Origin: Bacteroidales bacterium
GTDB taxonomy: Bacteria; Bacteroidota; Bacteroidia; Bacteroidales; WCHB1-69
DNA: 64,000 bases
Assembly (NCBI GenBank): GCA_017525245.1
Contig: JAFXTE010000008.1
Location: 62,001 to 126,000, forward strand
Direction of reading: 5' to 3'
Shown: piece by piece, positions 42,630-54,297 of the stretch
Layout: every line of letters begins with the position of its first letter
Numbering within the stretch: position 1 is the stretch's first letter
Position numbers and translations under genes: made by a program
Notes under the pieces: generated by a model
Seen by the model: only the letters and a program-made list of their open reading frames with translations
Databases searched by the model: none
Told to the model about the DNA's origin: nothing

Positions 42630-43730
42630 TTAATTCATATCCACCCCGTATAAATGCAAGTTTCTCATCCATCCTTTATCTCCAACGATAAAAGTTAGTA
42701 CAATCTGTGTTAACTTGAAATGTTCAAAATGCAAGTCCATAGAAGTTGGAATATTGTCAATATTGCCCAATCTATTATTGCTATCTCGAAAAATATTCCT
42801 TATATTAAAGTTAAGTTCAATACGTTGTTGGATTTTCCTTACATAATTATCTTTAATAGGAAGAGATAGCTCACTTTTCAAACATTGTTCGTCCATCCCC
42901 CTACAGGTAAGTACCAAATTTCCTTCTTGCATGTCAATATTGAGTTGTGAATTCAATTCACCTTCCAACATTGCGCCAGAGGTTTCTTGCATGAAGAACT
43001 TGGTGACATTGAATGTTATGTTTTGTGGTATAAGACCATAAGTTTTGTTATAAATCTCAGTATTGCTTGATGAGGAAACAAATATAGGACATTTACCTAC
43101 TTGGTTCATTCTATTATAGCAGTCTCTCAAAGCTTTTTCACCATCAACAGGCTTATCAAAGTCATGCTGGTTTTGTTTGTATTCATCGAAAAATGCAGCT
43201 TTGTTTGAATTATAATTGTTTCTTATTTCATCGTCTCCAAAAAAAGTTTGACTGCTGCTGTTAACATGATTATAAATATACAAGAATATCGAATCATAAT
43301 AAGCAGCTGTATTTCCATAATCTGTCACGGTTTCATTGAAATACTCTTTCACTGTTGGTACCATAATAGGAAATATCGAATAATCATCAAGATTTTTAAA
43401 ACGTTTTTTGTAATAGGTGAGCAATGATGATATCAGAGCTAAAAAATCTAATTTTTCAGCACCTTCTGTATTTTCCACAGCATTTATCAGCAAACCGATT
43501 GTAGTAATTACTCTAATAGCGTTTTCTTCAGCTCGTTTTGATGAATATTTCATTACATACATATACATAGCGAGTGGCAACTCAGGACAGTATGGAACAT
43601 CCGAGTAAGTGTCAAAATGGTTCAAATTGGAAACCAGAGTTTTCCAATTTTCTATAACCACAGAATTGTCGCTGTTTTTGAACCCAGCGATAATGTCACG
43701 AGCGGGGGTTAACAACATAGCTTTTTCCAT
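42630..43730 (-). CDS. hypothetical protein of the MITE-bracketed operon
   Basis: 366 residues. A helical first half (about 1-215) is followed by a beta-rich second half (about 225-360, with ITFNVTKFFMQETSGAMLEG and NLVLTCRGMDEQ). No signal peptide or known motif. It is separated by only 4 bases from the small frame upstream and by 10 bases from the gene downstream, so the cluster is tightly packed. Confidence 0.65.
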   Translation of the reverse strand: MEKAMLLTPARDIIAGFKNSDNSVVIENWKTLVSNLNHFDTYSDVPYCPELPLAMYMYVMKYSSKRAEENAIRVITTIGLLINAVENTEGAEKLDFLALISSLLTYYKKRFKNLDDYSIFPIMVPTVKEYFNETVTDYGNTAAYYDSIFLYIYNHVNSSSQTFFGDDEIRNNYNSNKAAFFDEYKQNQHDFDKPVDGEKALRDCYNRMNQVGKCPIFVSSSSNTEIYNKTYGLIPQNITFNVTKFFMQETSGAMLEGELNSQLNIDMQEGNLVLTCRGMDEQCLKSELSLPIKDNYVRKIQQRIELNFNIRNIFRDSNNRLGNIDNIPTSMDLHFEHFKLTQIVLTFIVGDKGWMRNLHLYGVDMN

Positions 43731-47571: not shown

Positions 47572-48179
47572 TTATTTGCTCTTCTGTTCCAAAAAGATTT
47601 GTTTTTGCAGCTCTATCTCTTGGCGCAGCTGTTCCTTCGTGGGCAGATAGGTGAGATATTTAGCTTGGAACAATTGTTCGCTGCCATGGAGAACGCTATA
47701 TCGCGCCATATCTTCGCTGGTGTCGGAGCAAAGCAACAAGCCGATGGTGGGATTGTCCCCATCTGTACGCATCAATTGGTCATACATCCTTACATACATA
47801 TCCATCTGTCCCACATCCTGATGTGTTATCTGCTCGGTCTTCAGGTCTATCAAGAAGAAGCACTTCAGGATATAATTGTAGAACACCAAGTCAATATAAA
47901 AATCACCCATATCCGTGCGGATATGCTTCTGTCGGGCCACAAAGGCAAATCCCTTGCCCATCTCCATGATAAAACTTTGCAGATGACTGATGATACTACC
48001 CTCCAGTTCTGTCTCCGTAAAATCAGCATAGGGTTGCACAAGAAACTCTGCCACGCGGCCAAAACTCCGAATTGTGGCCTCGGTGCGGCCACATTTTCGG
48101 ATTGTTGACTCGCTGCGTCAACTATATGGAATTGTTGACTTAACGAGTTGTAACTATGGGTTGAATCTATTTCTGTCAT
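47572..48179 (-). pseudogene. DUF1016 nuclease gene lacking its N-terminal domain, frame-shifted
   Basis: From about 48054 the frame encodes a DUF1016 C-terminal PD-(D/E)XK domain: ELEGSIISHLQSFIMEMGKG, FYIDLVFYNY, then FFLIDLKTEQITHQDVGQMD. The only ATG behind the promoter (48179, MTEIDSTHSYNSL) is in another frame, and a TAG blocks the nuclease frame upstream of residue VAEFL. The whole N-terminal domain (about 150-190 residues) is missing. Two palindromes lie at the junction (48073-48093, 48104-48122). GTG at 48054 could still give a short protein. Confidence 0.7.
48073..48122. repeat. two palindromes at the DUF1016 domain junction (locus 1)
   Basis: TGTGGCC-tC-GGT-Gc-GGCCACA and GTTGAC-tC-GCT-Gc-GTCAAC, each with a 3-base loop and the same single mismatch place, 29 bases apart by centre. 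Related palindromes occur in the other DUF1016 genes. Confidence 0.75.
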
Positions 48180-48202
48180 GTTTCTATCCTTTTTATGAAC
48201 CG

Positions 48203-48210
48203 CAAAAATA
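48203..48210 (-). promoter_or_regulatory. promoter -7 box of the truncated DUF1016 gene
   Basis: Minus-strand TATTTTTG, 24 bases upstream of the ATG at 48179; a promoter has survived although the gene is broken. Confidence 0.55.
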
Positions 48211-48217
48211 CAAAAAA

Positions 48218-49276
48218 TCACAATGCCTGGTATGCTTGAAGTTGGGCGGTCAAACGGTCACGCACTTTCTGCTGAATATCAGTGGGAGAAAGGACCAACA
48301 ACTCTTTGCCGAAAGACGATAATTCCCGGATTAGTTCGTAGTTCTCGATGCACTCAATGGAGAAGAACGCGCCACCGTCAAGCTTTGGGTATTGCTGACG
48401 CAATTCCTTTTCCTTCTCTCCTTTATAATGCCGCTGGGACTCGTGCAAGGGTTTTGTGGCGACATAATCTTTGGAATAGTCGCTGACCCAGAAGAGGATG
48501 GTCTGCAAGGGATTTCCCTCGATGAGCGTCACTCCGATGATGTCCTCGAAACATTCGTTGAGGTCGCCATCATATTCCCTATAAGGACGTGCGGGCAATG
48601 GGACGAACTTGTCCAGGCGGTCGAGGGCGAAGTTGAGTATTTTGCCCGTATCTTCGGCAGCGGCAATTAAATACCAACGACGGTTATACTCCTTGAGCAA
48701 ATAGGGAAAAACCACCACCGAGCGATCAATTTCAGGCGTGTCGAACTTGTGGAAATGCAACTCCACCACCTGCTTCTGCGTGATGGCAGTGAACAACTCA
48801 CCCAGCAGACTCTTTCCTTCCAACGGATTCTTGGTGAACGACACAACTTGGCGACCGGTCTTCACTTTGAGACTTTCCCTGAGCCGTTCCAAACCCTCAA
48901 GATTCGGCAGGCCATCAAATTGTCCAAGGAGGGTGAAGGCTTCGCCAAGAAGGCGCTTCTCGTCATCCGTAAGCTTCTGCGTAAAGATGGAGAACGATGG
49001 ATCCGCATAACGATGGCAACTTTTCTTGACCGTCTTGAGAGTTCGTGGACTTACATCATCAATCTGATAATGCTCTATTTCAGCGACAAAAGGGCTTTCG
49101 TGTTCCAAATAATGAAGGTCAAGTTCAATGGTACGGCGGCTTACATGCTGTTCCCGTTCCTCCAACTCCTCGTTGACCAGACGGCACAAATCTTCGGTCG
49201 AGTAGTTGTGGTAACGGTTCGCCAACAGCTTGTCGAGAATGTAGTAACGTGTGACGGCGTTTTTGTTTGCGGGCAT
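48218..49276 (-). CDS. WYL-domain transcriptional regulator
   Basis: 352 residues. The N-terminal winged helix (about 5-65, YSTEDLCRLVNEELEEREQH and VSRRTIELDLHYLE) binds DNA. The WYL domain (about 170-260) contains EYNRRWYLIAA and a C-terminal WCX-like extension follows. WYL proteins sense nucleotides or nucleic acid and often control defence operons. It lies downstream of the DUF1653/nuclease operon on the same strand, but with its own promoter box at 49299-49306, and may regulate the island. Confidence 0.85.
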   Translation of the reverse strand: MPANKNAVTRYYILDKLLANRYHNYSTEDLCRLVNEELEEREQHVSRRTIELDLHYLEHESPFVAEIEHYQIDDVSPRTLKTVKKSCHRYADPSFSIFTQKLTDDEKRLLGEAFTLLGQFDGLPNLEGLERLRESLKVKTGRQVVSFTKNPLEGKSLLGELFTAITQKQVVELHFHKFDTPEIDRSVVVFPYLLKEYNRRWYLIAAAEDTGKILNFALDRLDKFVPLPARPYREYDGDLNECFEDIIGVTLIEGNPLQTILFWVSDYSKDYVATKPLHESQRHYKGEKEKELRQQYPKLDGGAFFSIECIENYELIRELSSFGKELLVLSPTDIQQKVRDRLTAQLQAYQAL

Positions 49277-49298
49277 AATGTTTCGATTTTTCCGGCTG

Positions 49299-49306
49299 CA
49301 AAAATA
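49299..49306 (-). promoter_or_regulatory. promoter -7 box of the WYL regulator
   Basis: Minus-strand TATTTTTG. Next to it lies the palindromic stretch ATTCGCGAAACCTATTTTCG, with repeated TTTCGCGAAA words that could be an operator. Confidence 0.5.
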
Positions 49307-49376
49307 CGAATAATTCGCGAAACCTATTTTCGCGAAACCAGCAGAGCCGTCATGATTATGGCAGCTCTGCTAATTG

Positions 49377-50063
49377 TTACATCTTCCTAAGCACCATTTC
49401 CGGGACGTATCGATTCTTTGTTTCCATATCACCAAGTCCCAAACGGGGATAAACCATACCTCCGATTCCGGGTATCACTTCGCTGCCTTCGCGTTCGTCA
49501 TCAACGGCAAAGGTGATGAAATGAAATTTGCTGCTGATCTCTTCCGGAAATTCACGCATCAGATTTGGCACGCCATCTTTGTACATCACCGGAGCAAGAA
49601 TGGCTATCTGATCGGGTGTTGTTTTCCCTATCAGCCTGGTTAATTGCGTCTTAACCACGCAGGAAGTGTTGATAATAGATTTGACAATCACCAACAACTG
49701 GCAATCGTTGATAGGCTCTTCGTATGCTTTCTCTATGGGAGATATTTCCACTTTAGAGCCGTCTTCATTGGTGTGGATCACCTCGCGAGAGTTCCAATAA
49801 ACCGATTTCTTCAATTCTCCTTTGCCAAATCCCGATTCCACCCCTGCCGCCAACCAGTCGGCGTCTTCAGAGGCACATACCAACATGGTATGATCGGCTA
49901 AGACCGTTCGATATTCAGACGCCAAGACCTTGCCCAATTCTATACCAAGCGTACGAAACGCTTCTCGGTAATCATTCACATTGGTGCCCTTGTCTGCCAA
50001 AGCATCAAGAGAAGCTTTGATAACAGCTTCATCACCATATTGTAGGTTTTCAAACTTTCTCAT
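49377..50063 (-). CDS. possible phosphoribosyltransferase-like protein (conflict-system type)
   Basis: 228 residues, soluble. QLLVIVKSIINTSCVV at about 122-137, followed by helix KTQLTRLIG and strand QIAILAPVMYKD, resembles the strand-loop-helix PRPP site of PRTases. The usual acidic pair and TGGT loop are, however, replaced by KS...NTSC. If related, it is a degenerate PRTase. It is the last gene of a three-gene operon, 15 bases behind the nuclease gene. The assignment is tentative and the protein may be something else. Confidence 0.4.
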   Translation of the reverse strand: MRKFENLQYGDEAVIKASLDALADKGTNVNDYREAFRTLGIELGKVLASEYRTVLADHTMLVCASEDADWLAAGVESGFGKGELKKSVYWNSREVIHTNEDGSKVEISPIEKAYEEPINDCQLLVIVKSIINTSCVVKTQLTRLIGKTTPDQIAILAPVMYKDGVPNLMREFPEEISSKFHFITFAVDDEREGSEVIPGIGGMVYPRLGLGDMETKNRYVPEMVLRKM

Positions 50064-50078
50064 AAGCCCTCCTTTCTG

Positions 50079-50921
50079 TTATAATATTGCAACCAACTCG
50101 CGTCTCGTGGTTGGTTTTTTATCAATGATTTCCTGTTCTTTTTCATCAGGCCAAGGACAACTACCAGTAAAGTCGCCAAGCCGCCAGTAAAATATTCTTC
50201 CGCTTACACGATAGTGGAGTCCATCAATATTATCCAAGACCTCTCGGCAAGCATCGCTGACTATCCCATCAGAAAAGATGTTCAGATTAAAATATTTTGT
50301 TTGCTCTGCATGAGTGATAATTTCCGACAAGCTCACCCTGTGGTTATTTCCACATCCTCTCCAAACACCAAGGAATACATAGGCCATATCTGCCAGTTCA
50401 TCAACGGTTGCGATATCTCCATTGACTGATATCTGTCGGAGAGCGTCAACAAATTCATCACTGATAAGAATCAATCTGTTCAAATCTTCCTCGTATGGGA
50501 AATACTCAGTGGATGTGTAATCTCGAATACTTTCCGGAATGTTATTTCCCACTTGACTTCCAACCGCAGAATAGACCAATTTCAAGGCAAACGTCTCATT
50601 GCGTTCCCGACAATCTCTTATCTGGTGCTCAAAATCAGATGTAATGGTTCTTTCCGATGATCCTGTGTTCCATGTCAAATTCTGAGTGTTCTTCAACTGA
50701 TGATACACGTTTTTGTCGGGATGAGCAATCAAAAGATCATCGACAAAAGTGTCTTCCAGCTGCGTCTGCAAAGCAACGCCATCCAAAGCCGCTTTATACC
50801 GAGCTATACACGACACTATCTGAAATACCGCATAATAATCTTCATAAAGACCGCCTTTGGCATTGGAGACACCTCCTTGGTGCTTGTTGGCAAGATAAAC
50901 TCTGTCTGCTTCACTTCTCAT
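50079..50921 (-). CDS. Cap4/DUF4297-like dsDNA nuclease candidate
   Basis: 280 residues. The N-terminal third has the order expected of this PD-(D/E)XK group. KGGLYEDYYAVFQI carries Glu 27, LEDTFVDDLLI carries Asp 61/62 and VYHQLKNTQ has Gln 75-x-Lys 77. Cap4-like domains cut double-stranded DNA in antiphage systems. The C-terminal part (about 110-280) shows no known sensor domain. The start overlaps the DUF1653 gene by 11 bases, so the two are coupled. The nuclease call is inference from motif order. Confidence 0.55.
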   Translation of the reverse strand: MRSEADRVYLANKHQGGVSNAKGGLYEDYYAVFQIVSCIARYKAALDGVALQTQLEDTFVDDLLIAHPDKNVYHQLKNTQNLTWNTGSSERTITSDFEHQIRDCRERNETFALKLVYSAVGSQVGNNIPESIRDYTSTEYFPYEEDLNRLILISDEFVDALRQISVNGDIATVDELADMAYVFLGVWRGCGNNHRVSLSEIITHAEQTKYFNLNIFSDGIVSDACREVLDNIDGLHYRVSGRIFYWRLGDFTGSCPWPDEKEQEIIDKKPTTRRELVAIL

Positions 50922-51141
50922 AAGCTTCTTCTTCCGTTATTTCCGTGAAACGTTTTATTATTCGACCATCTCTCTCTACAAAACCATCGAACATCTCTTT
51001 GGGGCGAACCCAAACCTTATGATCGCCATATAGAGCCTGATATACAACAACTAACGCTAACGATTCACTGTCCTGACCAATGACCAGAACCTTGTATATG
51101 CCACCCTTAAAGTGACGATAGTATCGTGTTTTATCAGACAT
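50911..51141 (-). CDS. DUF1653 domain protein
   Basis: 76 residues from the ATG at 51141. The promoter box at 51164-51171 leaves no room for the earlier ATG at 51159. RHFKGGIYKVLVIGQDSESL, then YQALYGDHKVWVRPKEMFDG and RFTEITEEEA, cover the whole DUF1653 pattern. The domain is a small SH3-like beta fold of unknown role. As first gene of the operon, overlapping the nuclease gene, it may be a binding partner or regulator. Confidence 0.8.
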   Translation of the reverse strand: MSDKTRYYRHFKGGIYKVLVIGQDSESLALVVVYQALYGDHKVWVRPKEMFDGFVERDGRIIKRFTEITEEEAYEK

Positions 51142-51163
51142 ATCAATCTTTCTATTCACGGTG

Positions 51164-51171
51164 CAAAGATA
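51164..51171 (-). promoter_or_regulatory. promoter -7 box of the DUF1653/nuclease/PRTase-like operon
   Basis: Minus-strand TATCTTTG, 23 bases upstream of the start at 51141. Confidence 0.65.
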
Positions 51172-51388
51172 AACTTTTAATTAAAACAGGCAGGGAATGA
51201 TGAAAAAATATTCATCCACCAAAAGGTCAGTTGCAATATTGTTGCCGGAAGTTCCAATATTAGTCGTATCATTATCGCGCCAGATCGTAATGATGAACTC
51301 GACGCTCAAGTCAATCTCCGGATTTTTTTCTCATTATCATCACTGTTTAAATACAGCTGCCATATTATGGGCGCGTTTCTTTATGCTA

Positions 51389-51647
51389 AAGAAATTGGAA
51401 AATGGGCTTCGCGTGCCGGAGGCACGATATTCGAATAACCCCACATCAGCGTAACGAAGTGGAGCGCAGTGTGGGGTGACGGCGGCGGCTGCACGTCGAT
51501 GGCGTGTTGAAAACACGCTACTATTAGCGAGTCGAGTAGTGGCGTGCCTCTGGCACGCAGACTTCCGCCGCGCATTCCACCCCACACTGCGGCCTGTCGG
51601 CCTTAGTATGGGGTTACTAAAATTGCGTGCTTCCAGCACGCCCAGCA
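51389..51647. repeat. 255-bp hairpin-rich dispersed repeat, copy B
   Basis: The same element as 37877-38135 with about 95% identity by eye. Its last hairpin is complete (GCGTGCT-TCC-AGCACGC), while copy A has lost two bases of it. It lies between the DUF1653 operon and the DUF1016 remnant. Confidence 0.9.
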
Positions 51648-51652
51648 CCCCC

Positions 51653-51785
51653 TGTTTTTCTCTTCTTTTGTTCCAACTCCCTCGCCGTGCGCTCCACTAC
51701 CTGTTCAAGCTGGTAGGTGGAGACGCCGAGGGGCTTGTTGACCTAATTCGTCAGCAGGTTGCTGACGAATTGGAATGAAGGATCC
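51653..51785 (-). pseudogene. DUF1016 gene remnant (C-terminal tail joined to linker palindrome)
   Basis: Minus-strand codons give NKPLGVSTYQLEQVVERTAR and ELEQ, almost identical to the C-terminus of the intact gene at 53122. Directly upstream lies a perfect palindrome (51745-51771), the kind found between the two domains of intact genes. The nuclease domain between them has been deleted and the join is out of frame. Confidence 0.75.
51745..51771. repeat. perfect palindrome of DUF1016 type (locus 2)
   Basis: AATTCGTCAGCA-GGT-TGCTGACGAATT: 12-bp arms, 3-base loop. Confidence 0.85.
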
Positions 51786-51955
51786 TCCCGGGCGCAAGGG
51801 AGCTTGCTTGCGGATAGCGCACCCCATTTTCTGCAAAAATTCCTCTTTGAAATTTAACAATTGGTAATTTGAATTGTTAAAATATTTTACAAACGCTTGT
51901 TTTCCAGGGCTTGCGAAAATCATACAAAACCCTTGACAAACGGGCGGTTTCGTTG

Positions 51956-51963
51956 TATATTTG
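51956..51963 (+). promoter_or_regulatory. promoter -7 box of the DUF1016 gene at 52054
   Basis: TATATTTG with TTGACA about 20 bases upstream. It rules out an ATG at 51967. Confidence 0.65.
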
Positions 51964-52053
51964 CCAATGGAAGATGGTTGTCTGCAAAGAGGCATGATTT
52001 TACATCTTCCACTCAACGAAAATATATCTTCTCAATTTAAAAATGAAAACATT

Positions 52054-53109
52054 ATGGCAGAAAAAGAAATAATCCAGATGCAGAATAACGACTATGACGA
52101 ATTACTGCTAAGGGCTGTGGCCGTAATTGAGAAAACACGCACTGATGTTGCCCGACACATTGCCATTGCGGCCAGTAACACCTATTGGGAGATTGGCAAG
52201 CTGCTTTATGAGAAGAAACTCGAAAGCAGGCATGGTAGTCAGGTGGTAAAACGGCTGTCGGCAGACTTGAAAAAACGGTTTCCCAAGATGGGAATGTCAC
52301 CACGTAACTTGTGGTATATGAAGACTTTCTTCGAACGATATAAAACAGCAGATGCAAAAGTGCAACGAGCCGTTGCACTTTTGCCGTGGTCGCATAACGT
52401 ATTACTTCTCAGTAAAGATTTGAACGACGAAGATACGTGGTACTATGCGCATGAGAGCACTGAAAAAGGCTGGAACCGCGACCTGCTGTTGAACGCCCTT
52501 AAACTGAAGATGCATGAGTCGAATCTGTCGGCACCTGCTGACAACAATTTCGCATCCTCTTTGCCTGCCGCACAGGCGAGGTATGCCAACGAGGTGTTCC
52601 GCAACGGATATAATCTCGGTTTTCTCGGGGTGACGGAGCCGATATTTGAACTTGAGTTGGAACAGAGGCTTGTCGAAAAGATAAAGCTGTTCCTGCTTGA
52701 ACTGGGAAAGGGTTTCACCTTCATTGGCAACCAACACACAGTGGAGTACAACGGAAAGGAAAGCCGTGTAGATATGCTCTTCTTTCACAGGAAACTGCGC
52801 TGTCTGGTGGCCGTTGACTTGAAGATAGGCGAGTTCAAACCCGAATACGCGGGCAAGATGAACTATTACCTTTCCCTGCTCGACCGCATAGAACGTCAGG
52901 ATGGCGAAAACCCCTCCATCGGCATCATACTCTGCGCAGAAAAGGACCACCTTGACGTGGAACTGGCACTCGAAGGCATCACTAAGCCTATCGGTGTGGC
53001 CGATTATCAACTTATCATCCCCAAGGAGGAACTGAAAAAGACCATTGTCGCCGAAATACGGGCTTTTAACCGAGAACTGAAAATTGAAAATGGCAACAAC
53101 AAAGTATGA
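52054..53109 (+). CDS. DUF1016 / YhcG-type PD-(D/E)XK nuclease
   Basis: 351 residues from the ATG at 52054; an ATG at 51994 in the same frame is possible. The N-terminal DUF1016_N domain (about 10-100) has ASNTYWEIGKLLYEKKLESR and FPKMGMSPRNLWYMKTFFER. The C-terminal nuclease domain (about 185-335) has RVDMLFFHRKLRCLVAVDLK, the D...DLK catalytic pattern. The linker contains a perfect palindrome in frame. The family is linked to DNA processing and mobile or defence elements without a defined role. It converges with a paralogue, 12 bases between stops. Confidence 0.88.
   Translation: MAEKEIIQMQNNDYDELLLRAVAVIEKTRTDVARHIAIAASNTYWEIGKLLYEKKLESRHGSQVVKRLSADLKKRFPKMGMSPRNLWYMKTFFERYKTADAKVQRAVALLPWSHNVLLLSKDLNDEDTWYYAHESTEKGWNRDLLLNALKLKMHESNLSAPADNNFASSLPAAQARYANEVFRNGYNLGFLGVTEPIFELELEQRLVEKIKLFLLELGKGFTFIGNQHTVEYNGKESRVDMLFFHRKLRCLVAVDLKIGEFKPEYAGKMNYYLSLLDRIERQDGENPSIGIILCAEKDHLDVELALEGITKPIGVADYQLIIPKEELKKTIVAEIRAFNRELKIENGNNKV
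52354..52384. repeat. in-frame palindrome in DUF1016 gene (locus 3)
   Basis: GCAAAAGTGCAACG-AGC-CGTTGCACTTTTGC: 14-bp perfect arms with a 3-base loop, coding for KVQRAVALLP just before the PWSHN motif. Confidence 0.9.
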
Positions 53110-53121
53110 GAACAGCGGCAC

Positions 53122-54297
53122 TTAATGGGGTTGTTTGGATGTGAATGGATTTAATCCGTTTTTCCCACTTTGTTCCAACTCCCTCACCGTCCGTTCCACC
53201 ACCTGCTCAAGCTGGTAGGTGGAGACGCCAAGGGGTTTGTTGATGCCTTTCAACGACCATTCCACCACAGTCTTGTCCGTTGATTTGCAGATGATCAGTC
53301 CCACGGTGGGGTTGTCGCCCTCGGCTCGCAGCAACTCGTCAACGGCAGTGACGTAGAAGTTCAGCTTGCCGGCAAACTCGGGGATGAACTTCACCACTTT
53401 CAACTCGACGACGACATAGCGGTGCTGCGGTATGTGATAGAACAACAAATCCGGGAAAAAGGTCTGCCCATCCGGCATTTGCAGCTCCATCTGCCGCCCA
53501 ACGTAGGAGAATCCTTTCCCCAATTCTAATAGGAACTGAGTCACCTTGGACACAAGCGCATCCTCCAGGTCCTCCTCCTCGTATTCCTCTTTCATCGAAA
53601 GGAAGTCGAAATGGTAGGGGTCTTTCAGTATCTCTTTCGCCAATTGGCTCTGCGTGTCGGGCAAGGTGCTTGAGAAGTTGGTAATGGCTGCTCCTTGGCT
53701 TCCGAAGAGATTGGCGGCTATTTGATTCTCAAGTCTGCTGCGGCTCCAGCCTTCTTCCACCACTTTATTGATATAGAACAAGGCTTCATCGAGAGATTGG
53801 CATTTGGAGATGATGTGGACATGGTGCTTCCAAGGTATCCGGCCGAAAATCTCGGGCATTTCCAATTCGCCACCAACTTGGTGGCTTTTTTCATCAACTT
53901 CTAATTGGCCACCAAGCTGGTGGCTTTTTTCGTCAGCAGCTTGCTGACTAATTAGGCCAACAGGCTGCTGGCCTTTTGTAACTCTTTCATAATAAAACGA
54001 ATACCATTGCTTCATATATTTCACATTGGAATATGAGAAGCCTGTTTCATTAGGGAATGCTTGCCGCATATCGAGGGCAAATTGCTTTACTACGCCAGCT
54101 CCCCAACGCTCTTCTGCACGTAGCGCCACCAAATCACGGCCTACGCTCCAGTAAAACTCAAGCATGGCAGTGTTCACTCGAACTGCGGCTTTCAATTGGC
54201 TTTGGCGGAAACGCTGCTTGATGTCTGCCATCCATTGTACATAGCCTTCGTCTGCGGTCATCACATCACGGGATATAAATGTCGGTTTTTTATTCAT
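53122..54297 (-). CDS. DUF1016 / YhcG-type PD-(D/E)XK nuclease
   Basis: 391 residues. The N-terminal domain has MLEFYWSVGRDLVALRAEER and FSYSNVKYMKQWYSFYYERV. The nuclease domain has FFPDLLFYHIPQHRYVVVEL followed by KVVKF, the PD...ELK core, and a GKLNFY motif. Between them (about 109-143) lies a repetitive linker (QQPVGLISQQAADEKSHQLG and so on), encoded by four palindromes. The other intact copy lacks this length. A promoter box lies at 54321-54328. Confidence 0.9.
   Translation of the reverse strand: MNKKPTFISRDVMTADEGYVQWMADIKQRFRQSQLKAAVRVNTAMLEFYWSVGRDLVALRAEERWGAGVVKQFALDMRQAFPNETGFSYSNVKYMKQWYSFYYERVTKGQQPVGLISQQAADEKSHQLGGQLEVDEKSHQVGGELEMPEIFGRIPWKHHVHIISKCQSLDEALFYINKVVEEGWSRSRLENQIAANLFGSQGAAITNFSSTLPDTQSQLAKEILKDPYHFDFLSMKEEYEEEDLEDALVSKVTQFLLELGKGFSYVGRQMELQMPDGQTFFPDLLFYHIPQHRYVVVELKVVKFIPEFAGKLNFYVTAVDELLRAEGDNPTVGLIICKSTDKTVVEWSLKGINKPLGVSTYQLEQVVERTVRELEQSGKNGLNPFTSKQPH
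53869..53973. repeat. four in-frame palindromes in DUF1016 gene (locus 4)
   Basis: GCCACCAA-C-TTGGTGGC, GCCACCA-AGC-TGGTGGC, GTCAGCA-GCT-TGCTGAC and GGCCAaCAG-G-CTGcTGGCC. Their centres are 39, 24 and 24 bases apart, all multiples of three, so the frame is kept. Confidence 0.9.

Follow-up and report, generated by a model that had tools for sequence, protein, structure and literature searches.

Covariation between protein and palindrome suggests that DUF1016/YhcG nucleases recognise a site inside their own genes

The proteins ParB, Spo0J and Noc act on palindromic parS or Noc-binding sites (NBS) that are read by a dimer, and one parS site of B. subtilis lies inside spo0J, a location for which our literature search found no paper with that phrase. 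Operator O2 of the repressor PurR lies in the repressor's own coding region, a single case beside a promoter operator, whereas repetitive extragenic palindromic (REP) elements are dispersed between genes, and a RAYT transposase gene is tied to its cognate short palindromes. Phage lambda O is a replication initiator without a nuclease, with four nearly perfect 19-bp repeats. It is a DNA-binding protein with repeated sites in its own coding sequence, and own-gene sites are already known singly, as with the lambda origin in O (PMC3985674, PMC4488673). Here we compare with these systems a short palindromic unit in genes for DUF1016/YhcG nucleases, four loci of which lie in a 64,000-nucleotide stretch of a Bacteroidales bacterium (contig JAFXTE010000008.1, positions 62,001 to 126,000, forward strand; hereafter the window).

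We put at roughly 80% the probability that DUF1016/YhcG proteins read a palindromic site within their own gene, a reading that draws on sequence covariation and on a predicted fold. The presence of the palindromes in the window is confirmed: every one that an earlier inspection of the letters alone (the original prediction) had named at the four DUF1016 loci was located, and the centres in the gene at 53122 are spaced by 39, 24 and 24 bases as it had stated. The interpretation that it attached to them is partly supported. The features concerned are as follows.

52054..53109, plus strand: intact DUF1016/YhcG gene of 351 residues, with DUF1016_N at residues 22-155 and a YhcG_C PD-(D/E)XK nuclease domain at residues 180-326
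52303..52317, plus strand: codons R84 to Y88 (consensus columns 83-87), the N-terminus of helix 83-96, which covary with pairs d4, d6 and d7
52356..52382, plus strand: 27-bp in-frame palindromic unit, coding for the region of helix 101-108; perfect pairing extends to 52354-52384 (14+3+14)
53122..54297, minus strand: intact DUF1016/YhcG gene of 391 residues, with DUF1016_N at residues 25-198 and a long linker with four units
53864..53890, minus strand: 27-bp unit, centre 53877
53903..53929, minus strand: 27-bp unit, centre 53916
53927..53953, minus strand: 27-bp unit, centre 53940
53951..53977, minus strand: 27-bp unit, centre 53964
51745..51771, minus strand: perfect 27-bp unit (12+3+12) in a DUF1016 remnant, beside a C-terminal fragment at about 51650-51744
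48070..48096, minus strand: unit of a decayed DUF1016 gene, with its arms at 48074-48092; the homologue L040 has the same kind
48100..48126, minus strand: the other unit of that decayed gene, with its arms at 48104-48122; compare again L040
47572..48054, minus strand: YhcG_C nuclease-domain remnant

Both intact genes score above the curated cut-offs for PF17761 and PF06250 (114.8 and 187.1 bits in one, 117.4 and 185.9 bits in the other), and Pfam puts the palindromic site within DUF1016_N in both, not between the N-terminal and nuclease domains where the original prediction had placed it. The decayed locus spans 47572-48180 on the minus strand, its two palindromes having 6 perfect bases on each side of a 7-base loop, and the other remnant covers about 51650-51771, also on the minus strand. 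The breaks of both decayed loci fall at or near palindromes.

Each gene was compared with 20 synonymous-codon shuffles, a perfect palindrome being one with an arm of at least 8 and a loop of at most 9 bases. In 65 full-length Bacteroidota genes, 53 perfect palindromes fall in consensus columns 100-109 against 1.45 expected, and outside these columns palindromes are near background; this is the comparison by which the original prediction had proposed to be judged. The set was then enlarged by the best-ranked 80 out of 586 confirmed loci in named genomes from many phyla and by 59 loci from viral contigs, so that 210 loci gave 195 full-length frames and 188 unique genes, and the peak returns in all three groups (52 versus 1.3, 62 versus 1.4 and 42 versus 1.0). 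The unit sits at a single codon position within DUF1016_N, with or without an insert. At least one unit is present in 182 of the 188 aligned genes, 236 units in total, under a criterion that 89 of 564 shuffles also satisfy; the six genes without one by this criterion are L001, L037, L045, L051, L176 and L195. Unlike PurR O2, the site is thus family-wide, with copies outside the gene rare, and relatives of yhcG were found across many phyla, in 477 plasmid records and in 15 phage records. A scan of 394 kb with 332 open reading frames (ORFs), from four source-genome contigs preselected as DUF1016 carriers, gave 11 occurrences of a 27-mer with at least 11 of 12 pairs against 0.8 expected. DUF1016 genes hold seven of them (one in the 51745 remnant), including all three with 12 of 12 pairs; the remaining four, each with 11 of 12, lie in other ORFs, including two at ORF ends.

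The unit has a length of 27 bp (12+3+12), with AATT-like ends, 8-base variable arms, a 3-base centre and a fixed frame; its length is odd in 220 of 236 units and one codon phase is used in 217. As the original prediction had it, the architecture is common to the loci while the arm sequences differ, a shared unit with variable arms across the aligned genes. In units selected by pairing score, pairing at d1-d8 is 0.83-0.97 against 0.33-0.58 from base composition. Positions d9-d12 are AATT-like, pairing at d13 is near background (0.38 versus 0.31), which sets the unit length at 27 bp, and pairing at d0 is barely above expectation (0.56 versus 0.47). Changes on both sides are seen at all 12 pairs, with 280 such cells against 79 after shuffling in 90 units hand-picked from 134 non-redundant ones. 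Genes with short linkers have one unit and those with long linkers often several; as linker length tracks unit number, the single unit looks basal and the arrays look like its expansions.

The arm bases covary with residues encoded elsewhere in the protein. By background-corrected mutual information in 134 genes below 80% identity, the columns outside the palindrome that stand out are 83 with d6 (z 8.8), 87 with d4 (7.7), 111 with d2 (6.0) and 114 with d3 (5.8), followed by 140 and 141 with d2 and d1 (4.3), 86 with d7 (3.6) and 81 with d5 (3.1), and the rest of the protein gives z of at most 3.5. The residue/base tables read like classical contacts: Arg83 goes with G:C at d6 in 76 of 79 genes, Arg87 with C:G or T:A at d4 in 25 of 25, Glu86 with C:G at d7 in 11 of 11, Arg114 with C:G at d3 in 25 of 29 and Arg or Lys140 with C:G at d2 in 64 of 74. 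The Arg83 rule holds in each collection (Bacteroidota 21/22, other phyla 38/39, viral contigs 17/18). A comparison within 67 non-overlapping pairs, each made up of a gene and its closest relative in the nuclease domain, lowers the influence of shared ancestry while falling short of a full phylogenetic test; column 83 with d6 is then top of 2348 tests (p 6.5e-9), followed by 141 with d1, 87 with d4 and 140 with d2 (p about 1e-5). The window genes follow the code, the one at 52054 with R84 and G at d6, Y88 and A at d4, S82 and C at d5, and R142 and C at d2, and the one at 53122 with S90 and C or T at d6, Y94 and A, and R186 and C; the latter also has less common choices, K93 with G at d7 and V160 with G or C at d3. 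Since the arm bases change in step with presumed DNA-reading residues, binding of the protein to its own gene is very probable.

The best matches of the predicted DUF1016_N structure are the DNA-binding domains of ParB, Spo0J and Noc, and it is this fold that the two families would have in common. A search of PDB sequences with the family profile gave no match up to E 1. In ParB and Noc a handful of residues sets the specificity, arginines contact guanines, and residues and bases switch together (PMC7383237); DUF1016 shares the small number of specificity residues, the Arg-guanine-type pairings and the switches. It differs in having a nuclease in place of the CTPase domain and a site inside its own gene in nearly all members examined. 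The window proteins are not classed as ParB because they have no N-terminal CTP (cytidine triphosphate)-binding domain. The parS consensus is the 16-bp TGTTNCACGTGAAACA (PMC7022226), whereas the DUF1016 sites are 27 bp with variable arms. Lambda O has its repeated sites in its own coding sequence; the candidate binding sites of DUF1016 lie within the gene and, in the sequences aligned here, covary with the protein. In the nuclease domain, D240 and K257 are invariant in 58 aligned proteins.

RhuM, a family unrelated to DUF1016, appears from its sequences to do the same, reading a palindrome in its own gene. Its coding palindromes were first met in the flanks of DUF1016 loci.

L226-L255, L259-L308, L108:2453-3622 and L127:2263-3300: RhuM-family genes with their own coding palindrome

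In 80 full-length RhuM genes, 52 palindromes fall within ten columns against 4.6 expected, and 9 or 10 of the 10 pairs at d2-d11 are formed in 73 of the 80 genes against 10 of 240 shuffles; a criterion of 7 of 10 pairs is weak, being satisfied by 80 of 80 genes and also by 145 of 240 shuffles. In 68 genes below 85% identity, columns 51, 53, 55 and 56 of the presumed recognition helix (VSKQTISEHL), in a helix-turn-helix (HTH) recognised by eye, covary with d6, d3, d6 and d2, respectively, and columns 80, 82 and 86, just past the palindrome, covary with d9 and column 110 with d8 (z 5.1-6.5). The pair test ranks columns 82 and 86 first, then 53, 49, 51, 88, 52 and 56. In genes whose two codons at d2 are those of Arg and Phe, CGG..TTC against CGA..TTT is a purely synonymous difference, and the choice tracks column 56 in 24 of 24 such genes: Glu or Gly goes with G:C (20/20) and Tyr with A:T (4/4; p 9e-5), the four Tyr genes being 53-78% identical to each other. 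Amino-acid contacts cannot explain a synonymous choice that tracks column 56, and DNA reading can. Several Glu genes with a third-position G+C of 17-33% use CGG..TTC against their own codon usage (elsewhere, L233 has 14 TTT and no TTC, and L262 18 TTT and one TTC), and L108, a Tyr gene at 56%, has CGA at the site although the rest of the gene has 13 CGG and 2 CGA, so base composition is no explanation either. A scan of viral contigs with one RhuM protein found no relative.

We propose that DUF1016/YhcG would be a sequence-specific DNA-binding nuclease and that the codons of its DNA-binding domain would themselves contain its site, as one 27-bp palindrome or several in an array. A ParB/Noc-like DUF1016_N, as a symmetric dimer, is predicted to read each half-site: the helix carrying the SxRNLxYM motif would read pairs d4-d7 with its N-terminus, the helix that follows WxH would read d2-d3, and the helix at GWSR d1-d2. 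A change of a recognition residue would be accompanied by a change of the palindrome in the same gene. The site would act in cis on the gene that encodes its reader; its most likely role would be that of an operator or loading site within the gene, keeping the nuclease low or at its own locus. Such autogenous control through an internal site, which would fit both DUF1016 and RhuM, is a tentative proposal to which we give slightly less than even odds. We see even odds for a general class of self-reading genes, with DUF1016 nucleases and RhuM among them, in which HTH-type proteins of mobile and defence islands bind a palindrome in their own codons.

Several observations weigh against self-recognition by a ParB/Noc-like protein. 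The ParB/Srx CTP-binding domain is absent, DUF1016_N and YhcG_C being the only domains at E of at most 0.001 in both window genes. Extra units in arrays miss the code at d6, where 24 of 39 follow it and the commonest pair overall would give 31, and barely follow it at d7 (17/28, commonest pair 15), whereas they follow it at d4 (37/43, commonest 30), d3 (21/29, 14) and d2 (25/32, 18). Among genes with a residue other than Arg at column 83, G:C is still found at d6 in 5 of the 27 from Bacteroidota and 3 of the 12 from viral contigs, and the Arg114 rule holds in 1 of 3 cases in other phyla. Copies outside the gene are rare, so that no classical operator at a promoter is seen. The model must also avoid self-cutting, since a nuclease sitting on its own gene could cleave it. 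Finally, every DUF1016 pair has at least one non-synonymous base, so that part of the code could instead arise from helix 83-96 touching the helix that the palindrome encodes.

This last point leads to the alternative that the covariation is protein-protein contact alone, with a mutational process, for example repair templated by the hairpin, maintaining the palindrome. The order of the elements fits it, the palindrome-coded helix 101-108 coming after helix 83-96, and so do the four imperfect 27-mers in other ORFs; the synonymous-only test in RhuM, with codon usage checked, speaks against it, as do the fixed 27-bp border with AATT ends and the lack of a 12/12 site in the other ORFs scanned, and we find it most improbable. 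Selection might instead act on the mRNA hairpin itself, because it pauses ribosomes, affects the stability of the mRNA or is bound by the protein as RNA; the units can indeed be folded on paper into a stem of 12 bp with three loop bases, and d0 hardly pairs. However, the mismatches at d1-d8 (1168 cells in 146 unique units) comprise 19 G.T, 46 A.C and 53 others, with permutation means of 84, 109 and 517; G.U-type mismatches are not favoured over A.C, which makes a selected sense-RNA hairpin unlikely. These counts bear on the sense strand, and an antisense RNA remains compatible with them. With arm bases that track residues at the helix N-terminus of a ParB/Noc-like fold in classical Arg-G and Glu-C pairings, we regard this alternative as very unlikely. 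A structured coding RNA element was likewise discarded, the G.U tolerance of a stem being absent by the same counts. The original prediction had favoured a palindromic element, comparable to those of Rickettsia, that inserts into or expands within a tolerant linker. Rickettsia palindromic elements (RPEs) also lie in frame inside genes and are about 100-150 nt long, inserted in intergenic regions, RNAs and coding sequences (PMC4316617). The DUF1016 unit is short, occupies one fixed position in one family and is coupled to the protein; instead of insertions into many unrelated genes there is one peak position in DUF1016 genes. Multi-unit linkers and unit numbers that differ between strains uphold the expansion, together with contraction, of units. 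Insertion as their origin fails, as genes with the shortest linkers (11-14 residues) keep one unit at the same place. A selfish insertion of the Rickettsia type predicts neither units without an insert, in one codon position and frame, nor their near-universality across many phyla, nor the covariation of arms with residues elsewhere in the protein, and it is rejected on these grounds; with little dispersal in E. coli as well, the observations contradict it as a source of the single-unit state, and it has, in our estimate, hardly any chance of being right.

Copies outside the gene were sought with each locus's own 19-mer core in its flanks, where a match of at least 14 of 16 was found for 3 of 118 loci against 9 of 1180 controls with the cores of other loci. 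The three copies, with 14-16 of 16 arm bases, lie 48 bp before (L117:3754), 6 bp after (L076:4942) and about 220 bp before the frame (L139:3679), so copies outside the gene are real but rare. Operators in promoters or flanks were set aside as these matches are too few. Palindrome density is mildly raised up to 300 bp upstream (0.27-0.36 per kb) and downstream (0.21-0.32), compared with 0.15 and 0.21 beyond 2 kb.

E. coli yhcG also contains units, and their copy number varies among strains, which is the strain-level gain or loss that the original prediction had suggested looking for: one to three units are present among the strains opened. There are three in yhcG of L211, L216, L217 and the K-12-like L215 (our label), the first unit of L215 being imperfect, with one in the O157 strain L219 and different units in CI5 (L218); L221 has a separate frameshifting deletion. 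In L224 (E. coli FDAARGOS_401), yhcG is truncated just past the third unit and followed by a small annotated transposase gene (WP_000639208.1); annotation of this type recurs in eight further strains among the matches listed, including Nico21(DE3) and E. coli strain C. A megablast search with the yhcG region gave matches in 5033 of 5426 complete E. coli genomes, some solely in the neighbouring nanQ, and at least 80% of the query was covered in 3310 of them. In two strains without yhcG, the interval from gltD to nanQ contains the 27-mer AATTCGCCAGACAGTGTCTGGCGAATT, which matches the internal unit U1 of L216, L217 and L219 exactly; in the yhcG-bearing strains L215-L220, a variant palindrome lies about 14 bp past the yhcG stop codon. 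A 36-base query with the E. coli unit found a median of 2 and at most 4 places per genome; the three extra places that were opened lie in yhcG, between yhcG and nanQ, and between gltD and nanQ of a strain without yhcG. The E. coli unit is not widely dispersed. DUF1016 shares with REP/RAYT an enzyme gene with cognate short palindromes and differs in having the site in the gene; the many dispersed extragenic copies of REP were not found for the E. coli unit, the only one searched for in this way.

Given self-recognition, the site could serve DNA processing, the nuclease nicking or cutting its own palindrome so that the locus begins to replicate or recombine. Protein A of phiX174 acts at an origin within its own gene. 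Unit arrays after the recognition helix resemble iterons, the nuclease domain has its invariant D240 and K257, the decayed window copies and the L224 type of E. coli break at or near units, and the lambda origin again lies inside gene O (PMC3985674, PMC4488673). PMC2672614 reports synthetic lethality of a yhcG deletion with alleles of dnaB, dnaN and parE and groups YhcG with HsdMRS, McrABC, IntF, IntS and PinE. Yet RhuM follows the same logic, and Pfam gave Virulence_RhuM alone above cut-off, and no nuclease domain, in the one RhuM protein scanned; we take processing to be rather unlikely. Again given self-recognition, the unit might be a homing or exclusion target in alleles that lack the gene, YhcG spreading by cutting it. 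The 27-mer kept in the two strains without yhcG and the variant palindrome past the stop codon in the six with it would fit, whereas the retention of a site inside the gene is left unexplained, the unit at the empty site could be a remnant of yhcG loss, and U1 and the empty site, with the same 27-mer, differ by eye in their surroundings. We consider homing or exclusion distinctly improbable.

Beyond the window, the source genome, a 3.68-Mb draft, has 12 YhcG_C matches, and palindromes occur at the same place in 7 of 9 further loci (L001, L004-L008, L010-L012), with 16-base arms in L008 and L010; L001 has no palindrome there by the same measure, and L012 is a C-terminal fragment. The C-terminus of the window fragment at 51650-51771 (VNKPLGVSTYQLEQVVER) is nearly identical to that of the gene at 53122 (53122-53230), so that one is possibly a partial copy of the other. 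An ORF of 366 residues at window 42630-43730 on the minus strand (L314:4632-5739) has a coding 27-mer with 11 of 12 pairs, which may be chance, 0.8 being expected per 394 kb. Directly after the gene at 49377 (minus strand) lies an inverted repeat at 49340-49371 (14-base arms, 86%, 4-base loop) that is probably an ordinary terminator. Among 75 of 89 neighbour proteins scanned there are 6 N6_Mtase, 5 HsdM_N and 4 Methylase_S matches; nine long proteins and five others were left out, so that proteins of HsdR size are undercounted. Type I restriction loci are some of the DUF1016 neighbours, not the rule.

In the literature searched, no description of a palindrome in DUF1016, YhcG or RhuM genes turned up, in line with the original prediction, which knew of no description for this family, nor did an established function for yhcG/DUF1016, nor a family-wide self-site coupled residue by base in a nuclease family or RhuM. 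Nematomorpha mitochondria likewise retain inverted repeats in coding sequences, of up to 284 bp and in mitochondrial genes, and the abstract links none of them to DNA recognition by the encoded protein (PMC6649704).

For a widespread nuclease family, the coding palindrome offers a probable DNA target, a residue-to-base code and a likely ParB/Noc-like fold. In DUF1016 and RhuM, families unrelated to each other, DNA binding seems to influence both the codons and the amino acids of the binder's gene, so that synonymous and protein evolution are not separable in them. If the site is an operator or centromere, this would explain how an island nuclease carries its own control along. Should the class of self-reading genes be real, protein specificity would be locked to the coding sequence, with amino-acid and synonymous choices dictated by self-binding, the internal site would be a portable operator, centromere or self-mark travelling with the gene, and more such families would probably exist.

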